Source: an uncultured Clostridia bacterium
GTDB taxonomy: Bacteria > Bacillota > Clostridia > Peptostreptococcales > Anaerovoracaceae
Length of the DNA stretch: 34,758 nt
Reading direction: 5' to 3'
Assembly (NCBI GenBank): GCA_946006945.1
Contig: CAMFZN010000005.1
Location: forward strand, 1 to 34,758
Shown here in pieces: positions 2,552 through 7,997 of the stretch. The number at the start of each line of letters is the position of its first letter. The stretch's first letter is position 1. A program made the position numbers and the translations under genes. The notes beneath the pieces are model-generated. The model was not told the origin of the DNA and ran no database searches. It was given only the letters and a program-made list of their open reading frames with translations.

Positions 2552-3940
2552 TTAATCCTCGTATGTCTTTCTTAGGATGTAGAATCCGTCCTCAAGTGCA
2601 TCGATGATTATGTTTCCTCTGTCATCTACAACAACATCCTCAGTTGAAGCAAGATGCGGTCCGGGGAATGGGAAGAATCTTGATGTTGGGTTAGGAGGAA
2701 TGAAGTAAGCCTTCTCCTTTATGTAATATGGATCCGATACATCATAGATTCTGAGTCCTGCATGGAAATAACAGTTATATACGACATCAGTTCTCTGCTC
2801 AAGCCATGGCTTTCCGTCCATAGGCTCGTGAAGATTATGTGGTCCGAAAGGTCCGATTCCTCCATTTAAGCCGTATGTGTTGAAGTTAGGTGCAGGGAAA
2901 TCCTCCGGTACCTCAGGGTATGGGAACTGTGCAATCATTACAGGATTGGCAGGATCGCTTACATCTACCATATGGATGTTATTCATCGCCTGCGGTCTGT
3001 TAAGAGTTCCCTCAGGGAAGAAGCCATATCTTTCTCCCTCATTTGTTACTACGCAGAGGTTTCTTCCCTTAAGTGGAAGTGCAGTGTGTGTTCTTGCACC
3101 TGCAAGATGGCTTGAGAATGCAGGCATAAACTTGAGATTGCCAAGTGCCTTCGGTCTCTTAGGATTCTCAACATCAACTATCATAAGACCGTCGCCGCAG
3201 TATCCCATATATGCCTTGCCGTCCATTACGAACGGAGGACCGTGAAGCCAGCCCTTGTCCATGAAGTTAGGATTATGAGGCTCCTGATGGTTGACAGTTC
3301 TTCCCGGAACACCGTCAACATACTGATGAGGAGCCCACCATCTTCCCTCCTCGTAAGGATTGGTTGGGTCTGAAATATTAATGATTCTGTAAATTAGTCC
3401 CTCGAACTCCTCAGCCTCACATGAAAGGTGCACATAATCTCCGCCGTTATACATGAATCTGTGAACACCCATTGAATGAGGAACTCCGCAGTCCCAGTAG
3501 CTTAGGAACTTAGGATTCAGAGGATCCTCTTTGAGGCTGTATATTCTAATTCCCTGCTCAGACTTCAAATCAGACAGCCTGTCTCCTACAAGCGCACCAG
3601 GACCTGCTCCGGATGTCATTGCAAGAATCATAAGATCATCTGCAATCTGAATCTTAGGAATTGAAGTTGTCGGCATCTCCTCAATATCGAACGGCACGAA
3701 CTTCTTTATGAATACAGGATTCCTTGGGTCGGTAACGTCACTGATCATGACACCGACACCGTTCGGACCTGCTGCAAAAGCAGCACCATAGAGAAGATAT
3801 CTTCCATCCTCAGTTCTGTAGAGAGCCATCTGGAACATTCCGCATGTTCCATCCATATCGCAGTGAGAAAGAACCTCAAGGTTCTTTATGTAACCATCGT
3901 TACCCTCACCCTTTGAGTAAAAATACTTACCCTCGCTCAT
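2552..3940 (-). CDS. LVIVD-repeat beta-propeller protein, last gene of the flavonoid cluster
   Basis: I start this 462-residue protein at the ATG at 3940, which has AGGAGA at the right distance; the frame is open 29 codons further but would run into the preceding gene. At least six LVIVD-type blade motifs are visible: GVMISDVTDPRNP (63-75), GIRIYSLKEDPLNP (130-143), IINISDPTNP (187-195), GLMIVDVENPKRP (251-263), MVDVSDPANP (324-333) and GLRIYDVSDP (395-404). A last one, GFYILR, closes the ring, so a six- or seven-bladed propeller is likely. There is no signal peptide, so it should be cytoplasmic. Histidines recur between blades (H155, H160, H218, H222, H233, H278, H285, H368, H371, H393, H429), a pattern reminiscent of propellers that bind a metal in the central channel. 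No function is established that I know of. Position suggests a role in flavonoid conversion or binding. Confidence 0.85.
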   Translation of the reverse strand: MSEGKYFYSKGEGNDGYIKNLEVLSHCDMDGTCGMFQMALYRTEDGRYLLYGAAFAAGPNGVGVMISDVTDPRNPVFIKKFVPFDIEEMPTTSIPKIQIADDLMILAMTSGAGPGALVGDRLSDLKSEQGIRIYSLKEDPLNPKFLSYWDCGVPHSMGVHRFMYNGGDYVHLSCEAEEFEGLIYRIINISDPTNPYEEGRWWAPHQYVDGVPGRTVNHQEPHNPNFMDKGWLHGPPFVMDGKAYMGYCGDGLMIVDVENPKRPKALGNLKFMPAFSSHLAGARTHTALPLKGRNLCVVTNEGERYGFFPEGTLNRPQAMNNIHMVDVSDPANPVMIAQFPYPEVPEDFPAPNFNTYGLNGGIGPFGPHNLHEPMDGKPWLEQRTDVVYNCYFHAGLRIYDVSDPYYIKEKAYFIPPNPTSRFFPFPGPHLASTEDVVVDDRGNIIIDALEDGFYILRKTYED

Positions 3941-3968: not shown

Positions 3969-4457
3969 TTATCGATTAATCGTGCGATGTATCTTGTCAA
4001 GCAGTGCTCCGACATAGAACACTCCAACCATCATTGATACTGCTATCTGAACAGTCATGCTCATCAGAGGAATCTCTGTCTCAAGGTTCATGGCAAGCAT
4101 TCCTATCGCCCAGCCGGCAAGCCACGACGGCATGAATATGTATCGTGCAAAAGTACAGGATATCACAACCGCCAGAAATCCCAGCACGAAGAGTACCGCA
4201 AAAAGCAGCACATCAGGATTTATCTCAAGTCCGCTTCTCATTATAAGTGTTGCCGCAAGAGCCCATACATCGCCAAGCAGATAACCCGCCGCTATCTTTC
4301 CTGCATCCTCGAACTTATTTCCGTTGCAGCCATAGATGCCTGCAGCAATAAGAGCTACCGGACCGAAGCTGTTTCCGATATACGGACTTGCTACAGCCCA
4401 GACAGGAGGCAGTAAGCCTACAAGCAGCGCGAGCGAAATAATCTCTTTCTTTGACAT
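3969..4457 (-). CDS. DUF1097-family integral membrane protein
   Basis: This 162-residue, very hydrophobic protein has about five membrane segments and little outside them, matching the size and look of DUF1097 proteins, whose biochemical role is unknown. It lies 22 bases after the chalcone isomerase gene and 28 bases before the LVIVD gene, so it is firmly part of the operon. Being the only membrane protein in this half of the cluster, it may move flavonoids or their products across the membrane. That is inference from context; there is no transporter motif I can point to. The ribosome binding site is weak (GGTG), so translation may be coupled to the gene before it. Confidence 0.75.
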   Translation of the reverse strand: MSKKEIISLALLVGLLPPVWAVASPYIGNSFGPVALIAAGIYGCNGNKFEDAGKIAAGYLLGDVWALAATLIMRSGLEINPDVLLFAVLFVLGFLAVVISCTFARYIFMPSWLAGWAIGMLAMNLETEIPLMSMTVQIAVSMMVGVFYVGALLDKIHRTINR

Positions 4458-4479: not shown

Positions 4480-5331
4480 TTATCTCATTGTGATATATCC
4501 GCGGTAGTTGGTCAGGTTGTTAAATGGAGTGTAATCTCCTACAGCGCATGAGATTACGTTATGTCTTGGCTTAAGATATGGGAATGTATCAGTCATTGCC
4601 CACTCAGGCTTTCTGATTGACTTAACGTCCTCTACCATTACCTTTCTCCACTCTGACTCACATCCGAACCAAAGCTCAAGTGTCCAGTCCATTACACATC
4701 CGTTAATGTCCTTCTTAACCTGGCTTGCAAGAATTCTTGTGCACTCAGGCGCCTTCTCAAGAACAGGAATTACCTCTTCGAAGAGCCACTTCTCACCCTC
4801 TGCCTTGTCTACGCCCTCAGGGAAGCCGATTGACATGTTGAAACGATAGTTAGGACCATCCTCTATGGTTCTTCCCTTTCCCTTGATATCCTTCTCCCAC
4901 CACATAGGAAGGAATGCGAAGATAAAAGGATTTCCTTCTGCATCGTTAGTCTGACGAGCTGCATTTCCTGCATCTCCTTCAGTCTCAATCTGACCCTTGC
5001 CCAGAGCTGATGCAGGAAGGTTGCCCTGCCATACAAGAACATCAAGAGGGAATGTCTCCTGAAGAGCCTTGATTCCAAGTCTTGGATCAAGGTCGCTTAC
5101 AAGCCAGTGATGCTCTGTAAGCTGAAGTCTTGCATAGCCATAGCTTTCTCCTCCCTCAGGCATTCTGTATGATGGATAGAAAGCATACTTTGTTACATAA
5201 GGCTCAAACTGAGAAATACTCTCAGGAATATGAGTCTTATAAAGCCATCTCTGAAGGCTTGGTCTGTAATCCTCACATGCGCAGTCTACGTAGATAAGAC
5301 TTCTCATCGGCTCAAATTTGAAATCTGCCAT
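4480..5331 (-). CDS. chi: Bacterial chalcone isomerase (Eubacterium ramulus type)
   Basis: The enzyme interconverts flavanone (for example naringenin) and chalcone; the E. ramulus enzyme also acts on taxifolin. The 283-residue length, the N-terminus MADFKFEPMRSLIYVD, the stretch ISQFEPYVTKYAFYPS, the block QLTEHHWLVSDLDPRL, the segment GFPEGVDKAEGEKWLF and the C-terminal NYRGYITMR agree closely with the E. ramulus chalcone isomerase as I remember it. The reported catalytic His33 and Asp79 (numbered without Met, recalled) fall on H34 and D80 here. The region around residues 115-135 (DAGNAARQTNDAEG) corresponds to the lid loop. This family is unrelated to plant chalcone isomerase and made of ferredoxin-like domains. 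It lies after the FMN reductase gene, separated by a hairpin, and before the DUF1097 gene. The assignment is by recall, not by search. Confidence 0.9.
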   Translation of the reverse strand: MADFKFEPMRSLIYVDCACEDYRPSLQRWLYKTHIPESISQFEPYVTKYAFYPSYRMPEGGESYGYARLQLTEHHWLVSDLDPRLGIKALQETFPLDVLVWQGNLPASALGKGQIETEGDAGNAARQTNDAEGNPFIFAFLPMWWEKDIKGKGRTIEDGPNYRFNMSIGFPEGVDKAEGEKWLFEEVIPVLEKAPECTRILASQVKKDINGCVMDWTLELWFGCESEWRKVMVEDVKSIRKPEWAMTDTFPYLKPRHNVISCAVGDYTPFNNLTNYRGYITMR

Positions 5332-5379: not shown

Positions 5380-5406
5380 GCCATATACCGAACCTCGGCA
5401 TATGGC
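5380..5406 (-). promoter_or_regulatory. Intercistronic hairpin between the flr-like gene and chi
   Basis: On the minus-strand RNA a 12-pair stem forms, with one G-U pair and a GGT loop: GCCATATGCCGA with TCGGTATATGGC. There is no T-run after it, so it is not a standard terminator. It could protect or mark an mRNA end and set unequal levels of the two enzymes. Confidence 0.6.
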
Positions 5407-5436: not shown

Positions 5437-6420
5437 TTAGTTGTTCTTTGATGGTGATGGGGTTGGCTCGATAACAGCTGTATAGTGAGCCTTTCTAGCC
5501 TGGAACTCAGGATCCTTGTGAAGGTTCATGAGTCTGCCCTCATTCTCAAAGATATCCTTGCCGTGAAGTGCCTTTCCGGAAAGAATATCGTGTGCATGAT
5601 GCTCACAAGCAGGATCGTACTCGAACTTTATTGCACCGTCAACTACCTTAAGCTCACCTCTGAGTCCGCAAAGCTCGCACTCTGCAGTAGTAGTGCCAGG
5701 GTGAATGTAGAACGCATTACCGTTGCAGTGTGGGCATGCACCAGGTGTTCCCTTCCAGTATGAAAGTGAATCATTCTCCTTATCGAAAATCATGAGATTT
5801 CTGTCGATCATGTCCTGTGCAGCCTCAACAAGGTTTCTTGCAATCTCCTTCATTCTCTCAACCTTGTCATCCTGCATGATAACATCCTTGCACCATGAGA
5901 AGTACTCGTTGTTAACAACCTTCCAGCCAGGGCTCATTGCGAGCATAGCGTGGTCAGTCTCTGTTCTTACAGCCCAGTCAGAACCGCCGATTCCAACAAA
6001 TGAAACAGCCTTCTGCTTGAAGTACTTGTGATCAAGAGGCTCCTTGCCCTGCTCCTGAAGCTTTGAGTTAAGGCCGAGAAGCATTCCTGTATCATGTCCA
6101 GGTCCCATTCTGTCACACATTGCGTGGAAGAGACCTGTAGCACCTGACTCAAAGATTGGGTCAACAAAGAGAACTCCGTCAGCATCTACCATCTTCTCAT
6201 AGAGAGCCTTAAAGTCATCCTTTCTTGTGCAGATCATGCCCTTACCCATTACAAGACCTCTTGAACATGCAACGCAGCCTGAGCACTGCTCAATATTCCA
6301 GTCAGCAACGTGGATGAACTCGATCTCAGCACCGAGATTTCTTGCCTCCTCGAGAGCGATGCGGCACATTGTGTCATTGTTTCCGTTCTTTGTTCCGGTT
6401 GAAATACCTAAGATTTTCAT
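5437..6420 (-). CDS. Flavodoxin-fold NAD(P)H/FMN oxidoreductase, candidate flavone reductase
   Basis: The 327-residue protein begins with an NADPH-dependent FMN reductase (flavodoxin-like) domain: MKILGISTGTKNGNNDTM supplies the phosphate-binding loop and CSGCVAC (46-52) is the cysteine cluster common in this family. The domain continues to about residue 210. A zinc-ribbon-like module follows with two CxxC pairs (C229/C232 and C248/C251), then a short His-rich tail (ACEHHAHD) ending in a Pro/Ser-rich stretch. As I recall, the flavone reductase FLR of Flavonifractor plautii, which reduces the C2-C3 double bond of flavones, belongs to this class. Position beside chalcone isomerase makes FLR the best guess, supplying flavanone to the next enzyme. 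The family call is firm; the substrate is inferred. It starts at the ATG at 6420 with GGAGGAAAG. Confidence 0.8.
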   Translation of the reverse strand: MKILGISTGTKNGNNDTMCRIALEEARNLGAEIEFIHVADWNIEQCSGCVACSRGLVMGKGMICTRKDDFKALYEKMVDADGVLFVDPIFESGATGLFHAMCDRMGPGHDTGMLLGLNSKLQEQGKEPLDHKYFKQKAVSFVGIGGSDWAVRTETDHAMLAMSPGWKVVNNEYFSWCKDVIMQDDKVERMKEIARNLVEAAQDMIDRNLMIFDKENDSLSYWKGTPGACPHCNGNAFYIHPGTTTAECELCGLRGELKVVDGAIKFEYDPACEHHAHDILSGKALHGKDIFENEGRLMNLHKDPEFQARKAHYTAVIEPTPSPSKNN

Positions 6421-6501: not shown

Positions 6502-6966
6502 CTAGAAGTGATTCTCTGCAGGTTCGTTGCAGATCTTTCTTGATAGACCGTCAGCTACAGGATTCCACAGCATTGCGATAACAAGTGTTGGAACATAGCA
6601 TGGAATGAAGCCTGCAACTACTGCAAACGCAAATGCCTGGAATGTTCCGTGTCCGAATACGAGTACTCCGAGACCTGTCATGATAAGGTCGAGGATTACT
6701 ACGAACACACCTGCGATAACAATGTTGATTAAAAGGCCGAACTTGAAAGTGCCCGGCTTAGCATGCTTTACAGCGAAGTCTACGCCCCACTTTCCTACAG
6801 GAAGGAAGTTAACGAAGAATGTTACAAGATATGCAATGCATGCCATTCTTACGAACATTGGACCGTTAAGGTTATTGCCAAGCTTCAGTGCGATTCCTGT
6901 AATCACAAGGCTGAGCGGAAGATCCATTATCAGTGCATATACAGCTGTGAGTTTCTTGCTTTTCAT
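6502..6966 (-). CDS. DUF2798-like integral membrane protein, first structural gene of the operon
   Basis: I choose the ATG at 6966 (MKSKKLTAVYALIMD, 154 residues) because a perfect GGAGGT lies nine bases upstream; a TTG start further up would bury that site. The protein has four hydrophobic segments and resembles the DUF2798 type of small membrane protein, a weak family call. It precedes the FMN oxidoreductase gene by about 80 bases and is the first gene after the lysR-operon regulatory region. Possible roles are uptake of flavonoid aglycones or product export. This is inferred from its place in the operon only, and no motif defines a transport mechanism. Confidence 0.7.
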   Translation of the reverse strand: MKSKKLTAVYALIMDLPLSLVITGIALKLGNNLNGPMFVRMACIAYLVTFFVNFLPVGKWGVDFAVKHAKPGTFKFGLLINIVIAGVFVVILDLIMTGLGVLVFGHGTFQAFAFAVVAGFIPCYVPTLVIAMLWNPVADGLSRKICNEPAENHF

Positions 6967-7095: not shown

Positions 7096-7115
7096 TTATA
7101 ACCATTTGGTTATAA
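7096..7115. promoter_or_regulatory. Near-perfect 20-bp palindrome overlapping the lysR stop codon
   Basis: TTATAACCATTTGGTTATAA has perfect 9-base arms around TT. It lies about 130-150 bases upstream of the first operon gene and covers the TAA of lysR. Its size and symmetry fit a LysR-type recognition site for the downstream genes. No binding data exist; a lysR site in a tandem rather than divergent layout would be unusual. Confidence 0.45.
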
Positions 7116-7997
7116 ATCGCAGTTATACGCACTTTGTAGTATTTTTATCAAAGTTCTGATGGTGTCATCAGCTTTACTATTCATATATGCAATACATATC
7201 TCGTCCTCTGAATCGAGCTCAAGGCATGAAATCTGCGGTGCTCCCTTAGCCCAGCTCCATTCATCAGTTATCGCAACACCCATTCCGGCACGAACACAGG
7301 TAATCATTGACTCATGATTGCTTACGAATTCAAGCTTAGGAACGAATCTGTATTTGTTCATGTGACCGTATATGGATTCTCTTACAAGCTTCTCAACAAC
7401 ACCCCACGGAACAAAGAAGGTTTCGTTTCTGAAATCTAAAGGACTTAAATCCTCAATGCTTTCATATCTGCTGCCCTTCGGATACAGAATATTCTTACGG
7501 ATTGAACATACGTCAACAATGCTTATCTCCTGTATTCCTTCAACAGAGTTCTTCATTGTAAGGCAAAGATCAAGGCCTCCTGTAAGAATGAGTGTTGAAA
7601 GCTCCTTAACACCGCAGCAGTTGACCACAAGTCTCACACCGGGACAATTCATCCTGAATTCTTCGATGATTCCGGGAAGGTATTCATACAGATCCCAGCC
7701 CTCAAGAAAACCAATCCTTACAACCCTTTCATTGGAAGATGCAAGCTTTAGAGCCTCTGTATGTGTCTTCATGAAATCCGACTTGCAGTCTCTAAACAGA
7801 TTGTAATACAGCTTACCTGCCTCAGTAAGCTCTGTCTTCTTGTTATTTCTGACGAACAGCTTAACACCAAGCTCCTTCTCAAGAAGAGATATCTGCTTGG
7901 ATATGGCAGGCTGGGACACGAAAAGCTCCTCTGAGGTCTTAGTAAAGCTCAGATTCGTTGCAACCGCCATAAAATAATCTATCTGCAGACTGTTCAT
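7110..7997 (-). CDS. LysR-family transcriptional regulator of the flavonoid cluster
   Basis: At 295 residues this is a standard LysR regulator. The N-terminal winged helix-turn-helix is clear (SFTKTSEELFVSQPAISKQI, about 17-36, then LEKELGVKLFVRN). The rest is a periplasmic-binding-protein-like effector domain starting near residue 90 (VVRIGFLEGWDLYEYLP). It is co-directional with and directly upstream of the operon, so it is the likely activator, with a flavonoid or intermediate as inducer; the ligand is inferred. It sits only 22 bases after ruvX, with its own ribosome binding site GGGAG, so it may be read through from the alaS-ireB-ruvX unit as well as from its own promoter. Confidence 0.88.
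   Translation of the reverse strand: MNSLQIDYFMAVATNLSFTKTSEELFVSQPAISKQISLLEKELGVKLFVRNNKKTELTEAGKLYYNLFRDCKSDFMKTHTEALKLASSNERVVRIGFLEGWDLYEYLPGIIEEFRMNCPGVRLVVNCCGVKELSTLILTGGLDLCLTMKNSVEGIQEISIVDVCSIRKNILYPKGSRYESIEDLSPLDFRNETFFVPWGVVEKLVRESIYGHMNKYRFVPKLEFVSNHESMITCVRAGMGVAITDEWSWAKGAPQISCLELDSEDEICIAYMNSKADDTIRTLIKILQSAYNCDL

Follow-up and report, generated by a model that had tools for sequence, protein, structure and literature searches.

A flavone reductase homologue with an invariant four-cysteine loop in a chalcone isomerase gene cluster of uncultured gut Clostridia

The stretch of DNA that was analysed (the window) comprises 34,758 nucleotides of contig CAMFZN010000005.1 of an uncultured Clostridia bacterium of the Anaerovoracaceae (GCA_946006945.1). 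The open reading frame at positions 5437-6420 is genuine and is read from the minus strand (window 6420..5437), where it encodes a product of 327 amino acids and starts with an ATG that is preceded by a strong ribosome-binding site (GGAGGAAAGAT-ATG). In this interval, the plus strand contains many stops and no frame that spans the full length. The product carries a PF03358 (FMN_red) domain at residues 1-176 and has cysteines at positions 19, 46, 49, 52, 64, 102, 177, 229, 232, 248, 251 and 272. The gene, a homologue of flavone reductase (FLR), is part of a cluster that is encoded entirely on the minus strand and runs from a LysR-type regulator via a small membrane protein, FLR, chalcone isomerase (CHI) and a DUF1097 protein to an LVIVD propeller. 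The features are as follows:

7110..7997, minus strand: LysR-type regulator, the likely regulator of the cluster (Pfam, synteny)
6502..6966, minus strand: small membrane protein of 154 amino acids from the ATG at 6966, without a Pfam match (Pfam search, synteny)
5437..6420, minus strand: FLR homologue, with a PF03358 N-terminal domain, a C-terminal ribbon and a tail (PDB and Pfam matches, alignment, fold match)
6229..6285, minus strand: N-terminal four-cysteine loop C46-x2-C49-x2-C52-x11-C64, a candidate [4Fe-4S] site (cysteine pattern, conservation; the FLR counterpart, residues 48-67, is disordered in crystals)
5668..5736, minus strand: C-terminal zinc-ribbon-type knuckles CPHC (229-232) and CELC-G (248-251) (cysteine pattern, conservation, strands in the predicted model)
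5440..5583, minus strand: C-terminal helical tail, residues 280-327, in which H286 and I290 correspond to H271 and I275 of FLR (alignment, model)
5380..5406, minus strand: strong stem-loop in the flr-chi gap, not followed by a T-run (folding, comparison of flr-chi gaps)
4480..5331, minus strand: bacterial CHI of 283 amino acids (Pfam, 4D06 match)
3969..4457, minus strand: DUF1097 membrane protein, a possible transporter (Pfam, synteny)
2552..3940, minus strand: LVIVD beta-propeller of 462 amino acids from the ATG at 3940, a candidate auronol-cleaving metallohydrolase (Pfam, conservation, fold and profile matches)

The same set of genes, with a variable position of DUF1097, recurs in Mogibacterium-type MAGs, mostly from the ruminant gut, and the closest related locus is that of Candidatus Crickella merdequi (L005), with an FLR of 83% identity. 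The module is sporadic, since an FLR-like gene was recovered at E<=1e-20 in only 6 of the 291 sampled genomes of the same class, the window's own included. The CHI belongs to the bacterial chalcone isomerases, considering its match to PF18232 (Chalcone_N, E 1e-43) and its full-length match to 4D06 (E 7e-161, ~78% identity). The CHIs of the window and of Candidatus Crickella merdequi are of the Eubacterium ramulus type (77-85%), and the CHI that occupies the same slot in the other Mogibacterium-type operons is ~48% identical. Because these CHIs are so dissimilar although the corresponding FLRs are ~80% identical, chi appears to have been replaced in place. The stem-loop between flr and chi has an MFE of -31.2 over 116 nt (z -3.7). 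Nearly all related flr-chi gaps also contain a strong stem, and as the sequences of these stems are unrelated, it seems that position and structure rather than sequence have been kept; the element may set the flr:chi mRNA ratio. Promoter-like sites were no commoner within the cluster than in shuffled sequences.

The only significant match of the protein in the PDB is the flavone reductase of Flavonifractor plautii (7D38; E 4e-82, residues 1-320, 45% identity, full length). A profile search against the PDB returned the same single match, and in a fold search with the predicted model 7D38 was recovered with a target TM-score of 0.89 and an E of 1e-27, the runner-up (6e-8) being around 20 orders of magnitude weaker. 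In the F. plautii enzyme the N-terminal domain (1-202) is followed by C-terminal subdomain 1, made of four strands and with its copies packed together in the dimer, and by subdomain 2, a bent helix from which H271 and I275 touch the substrate (PMC7862272). The substitutions G106A, W149A, H271A and I275A cause the loss of most of the activity and deletion of the 11 C-terminal residues abolishes it (PMC7862272). We found that G106, W149, H271 (here H286) and I275 (here I290) are invariant in 42 sequences and that T305, E34, I89, E91, D103, G146 and S147 are conserved with respect to the F. plautii enzyme as well. Since the mutation-sensitive residues and T305 and E34 have all been kept, the reaction is very likely the same. 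Given the full-length match, the fold match, the four retained residues and the chi neighbour, the initial annotation was right to propose a candidate flavone/flavonol reductase, and we consider it highly probable that the gene encodes an FLR of the F. plautii type, that is, an FMN enzyme reducing the C2-C3 bond of flavones or flavonols. By analogy to the solved homologue, the enzyme would be a dimer that converts flavones and flavonols to flavanones and dihydroflavonols, in which the ribbon (subdomain 1) would build the dimer and the tail helix would position H286 and I290 above the other subunit's flavin and thereby close the substrate pocket.

Two other readings of the identity of the enzyme were considered. 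The PF03358 domain, together with the weak fold matches of quinone reductases, azo reductases and WrbA to the N-terminal half, could point to a general FMN reductase (NAD(P)H:quinone, azo or WrbA-type) with a role in redox stress and a fortuitous position next to chi. This is very improbable, as the full-length match to FLR is far stronger, the ribbon and tail are absent from such reductases, the FLR substrate residues and the synteny with chi are conserved, and WrbA of E. coli is inactive on apigenin (PMC7862272). As nearest relatives these reductases were ruled out by the PDB sequence and fold searches: the nearest characterised homologue is FLR, and not the ribbon-less quinone or azo reductase that the initial annotation had named as a possible counter-indication. 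We also regard it as rather unlikely, though clearly less so, that the protein is an ene-reductase of the FLR family with a substrate preference that differs from that of the F. plautii enzyme, for instance for flavonols only or for another enone. What counts here against a straightforward assignment is a number of clade-wide differences at the FMN/substrate site (M10->T, S14->N, K92->S and T279->E294). In the F. plautii enzyme T279 relays a hydrogen bond, via water, to the carbonyl of the substrate (PMC7862272), and both this carbonyl-activating relay and the flavin contact of K92 are absent from the clade, which has E294 and S92 throughout; these are details of one solved structure and not known to define the family. 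Moreover, several Lachnospiraceae possess FLR relatives without chi, and specificity does vary within the family, since C. butyricum, which has an FLR sharing 28% identity with that of F. plautii, acts on flavones and leaves flavonols unconverted (PMC11868195). On the other hand, the contacts to the A/C-ring (W149, H271, I275 and G106) are unchanged and each of the 11 homologues that Yang et al. assayed converted apigenin (PMC7862272). An FLR of the F. plautii type thus remains the preferred reading, and the protein itself is a further member of the already known gut-bacterial FLR family, with which the degradation of plant flavones and flavonols begins.

The two groups of cysteines (46/49/52/64 and 229/232/248/251) are invariant in all 42 full-length sequences of the alignment, which included F. 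plautii FLR, and were also kept in three distant homologues of 28-31% identity (L059-L061). The fourth cysteine of the N-terminal group always follows 11-12 residues past the third, also in the distant homologues, and C19 is likewise invariant among the relatives. Considering this conservation, the eight-cysteine pattern is a trait of the family, far beyond chance. The CxxCxxC element and the two C-terminal pairs had been placed at exactly these positions before, whereas C64, which completes the N-terminal group, had been missed. The comparison with F. plautii FLR that had been suggested as a check, cysteine pattern included, revealed that both groups are common to the two proteins. The ribbon is consequently not the 'added module' it was taken for, because these four cysteines are also found in C-terminal subdomain 1 of F. 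plautii FLR; that it might be a peculiarity of the window protein was ruled out by the conservation across the family, distant homologues included. In the predicted model (mean pLDDT 78), strands at 237-239, 245-248, 254-260 and 263-268 surround both C-terminal CxxC pairs, an arrangement of two CxxC knuckles on beta-strands as in zinc ribbons. CPHC and CELCG thus resemble the knuckles of a zinc ribbon, with zinc as a putative ligand; the FLR paper makes no mention of zinc in its main text (PMC7862272). The 'His-rich tail' reported earlier turned out to be modest: H274, H275, H277 and H286 are present and only H277 and H286 are invariant.

The N-terminal loop bears on the way in which electrons enter the enzyme. 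F. plautii FLR reportedly cannot take electrons directly from NAD(P)H; its assay contained Fre, FMN and NADH, and Yang et al. left the electron transfer chain for later exploration (PMC7862272). For this reason NADH alone is the wrong assay, and the NADH-dependent reduction of apigenin and kaempferol that had been proposed as a check would probably fail. The iron-sulfur flavoproteins (Isf) of anaerobes contain FMN and a [4Fe-4S] cluster that is bound by the motif CX2CX2CX5-7C (PMC3164229). The loop of the FLR family reads CX2CX2CX11-12C; as this spacing is longer than that of the compact motif we do not class FLR as an Isf and only infer a similar mode of working. In our view there is an even chance that electrons would be supplied by reduced ferredoxin via a [4Fe-4S] cluster on C46/C49/C52/C64, and not directly by NADH; this is the mechanism that we favour. 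A realistic alternative, for which the case falls somewhat short of even, is that the loop binds zinc or constitutes a redox/thiol switch, and that the FMN is reduced by free FMNH2 or by a dedicated flavin reductase. This would agree with the activity of F. plautii FLR in the presence of Fre, FMN and NADH, with the flavin absorbance, and nothing else, that was reported for the purified enzyme in a main text that does not mention iron (PMC7862272), and with a loop spacing in excess of that of the classical iron-sulfur flavoproteins. It agrees less well with the invariance of the four loop cysteines down to 28% identity and with the crystals of FLR, which miss residues 48-67, a span that includes C49, C52 and C64 (PMC7862272), as would be expected after the loss of an oxygen-labile cluster. 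In addition, E. ramulus has SufC/SufBD-type iron-sulfur assembly genes directly upstream of flr, at a gap of ~0.5 kb, which may be taken as a weak hint of an iron-sulfur FLR. Such SufC- and SufBD-type genes were observed immediately upstream of flr-chi in three loci, from E. ramulus and a close relative (L019, L020 and L021). Literature searches on FLR in combination with iron-sulfur, or with electron donor, yielded nothing pertinent. Whichever applies, the invariant four-cysteine loop makes the electron donor of FLR, left open by its discoverers, a question that is concretely and cheaply testable.

The LVIVD propeller is present in 19 of the 19 Mogibacterium-type relatives and, at 66%, in E. 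ramulus. Among 44 FLR-bearing genomes, 32 contained both the propeller and CHI, 3 the propeller only, 2 CHI only and 7 neither (Fisher p 1e-4, kinship ignored); without the Mogibacterium group the respective numbers were 14, 2, 2 and 7 (p 0.002, kinship ignored). The phosphotriesterase of Sphingobium sp. TCM1 is metal-dependent. This enzyme (PDB 5HRM) was the best fold match of the predicted propeller model (pLDDT 84.5), with an E of 2.7e-15, and the sole significant profile match of the LVIVD protein (E 8e-9). The invariant residues H160, H233, H285, H368, E301 and E303 are consistent with a metallohydrolase, and on basis of the gene context we hypothesize that the propeller is a candidate for an auronol-cleaving enzyme. 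A literature search on LVIVD and flavonoids yielded nothing pertinent, and for the quercetin pathway through alphitonin no named alphitonin-cleaving enzyme was found.

Some indications on the downstream route can be obtained from the wider gene context. FLR, CHI and the propeller are clustered with a 2-oxoacid:ferredoxin oxidoreductase (KOR) in L011, L058 and the Butyrivibrio-type genomes (L072/L033, L073). The clusters of L058 and L072/L033 add a phosphate butyryltransferase (Ptb) and a butyrate kinase (Buk), and that of L073 adds Ptb. In L057, FLR and CHI lie beside an indolepyruvate:ferredoxin oxidoreductase (IOR) and Ptb. Overall, the combination of FLR/CHI with KOR or IOR occurs in four lineages, mostly together with Ptb and/or Buk. 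The genome of the window has a cluster of a P-loop NTPase and KorA/KorB/KorC on another contig (C6:1618-4974, L084), with 65-81% identity to the genes that come right after FLR-CHI-LVIVD in L011. The link between KOR and flavonoids is contextual, since in the window's genome, as in most relatives, KOR forms an operon of its own. In Butyrivibrio/Pseudobutyrivibrio (L033, L072, L073, L042) there appears to be a single long cluster CHI-Ploop-KorABC-Ptb-Buk-MFS-FLR, accompanied by a divergent propeller and LysR. The propeller is absent from L056 and related L057 genomes. Small cluster proteins of these loci (L056 9867-10544 and L057 5189-5809) gave sub-threshold matches to PF18089, the family of DAPG/phloretin hydrolases (E 0.0003 and 0.0015, respectively), and these PHY-like proteins are possibly a non-orthologous replacement of the propeller. 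PHY itself (PF18089) was detected neither in the window's genome nor in any of the 19 Mogibacterium-type genomes, while both E. ramulus genomes, used as positive control, gave clear matches. Members of the OYE family (PF00724, Fcr) were not found in the window's genome, which is 81% complete, and are present in all 19 relatives examined; their absence was therefore dropped as a trait of the group, that of PHY being better supported.

Taken together, the clustered genes suggest a flavonol route via an auronol and an arylpyruvate as the one that FLR most likely feeds in this bacterium. More explicitly, FLR would convert the flavonol to a dihydroflavonol, which CHI would contract to an auronol such as alphitonin; E. 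ramulus CHI converts taxifolin to alphitonin, besides opening flavanones (PMC9694015). The propeller, or the PHY-like protein in the L056/L057 genomes, would then split the auronol into phloroglucinol and an arylpyruvate, the latter would be oxidized by KOR/IOR to arylacetyl-CoA with formation of reduced ferredoxin, and Ptb and Buk would turn arylacetyl-CoA into arylacetate and ATP. The stoichiometry of the cleavage balances (alphitonin C15H12O7 + H2O = phloroglucinol C6H6O3 + dihydroxyphenylpyruvate C9H8O5), and Goris and Braune, working from the metabolites of Catenibacillus, independently postulated that dihydroxyphenylpyruvate might be released when alphitonin is cleaved (2024, PMC11170127). 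As for the physiological substrate, the chi neighbour, from which a flavone or flavonol had initially been deduced, is a valid clue in so far as its product is ~78% identical to E. ramulus CHI, but the downstream genes speak for flavonols rather than flavones; a flavone route is possible too, because OYE-family proteins occur in other relatives. The assignment as flavone reductase is more certain than either the electron route or the downstream route. Only tentatively, then, do we propose that FLR-CHI-propeller and KOR/IOR-Ptb-Buk may constitute a complete module for flavonol fermentation, with FLR as a ferredoxin-fed iron-sulfur flavoenzyme and the propeller as alphitonin hydrolase.

Taken alone, the gene adds one more FLR, now from uncultured rumen/gut Mogibacterium-type bacteria. 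Its interest lies in the question of electron entry and in the candidate auronol-cleaving neighbour. The position of the propeller beside FLR and CHI, elsewhere clustered with 2-oxoacid:ferredoxin oxidoreductase and acyl-phosphate enzymes, provides a named candidate for alphitonin cleavage and an energy-conserving scheme. If true, the conversion of arylpyruvate to arylacetate would yield ATP as well as the reduced ferredoxin that FLR consumes.

The best-characterised counterpart is F. plautii FLR (KGF53654, PDB 7D38-7D3B; Yang et al. 2021, PMC7862272), which has the FMN_red domain, both cysteine groups, the ribbon subdomain, the tail, W149/H271/I275/G106 and chi as immediate neighbour in common with the window protein. 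The two differ in sequence (45% identity) and by an extra insertion of ~13 residues before the ribbon of the window protein; furthermore, the window cluster includes the propeller and phloretin hydrolase was not found in the window's genome. The propeller shares 14-16% identity with the TCM1 phosphotriesterase, which acts on another substrate, and its metal ligands are putative. With the iron-sulfur flavoproteins, the FLR homologue shares an FMN-binding flavodoxin-like domain and a CxxCxxC...C loop in the N-terminal half, but the fourth cysteine is 11-12 instead of 5-7 residues away, the ribbon and tail are extra and the substrate is another one. Finally, the CHI of the window resembles the chalcone isomerase of E. 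ramulus (PDB 4D06, 8B7R), an organism of another genus, over its whole length (~78% identity).
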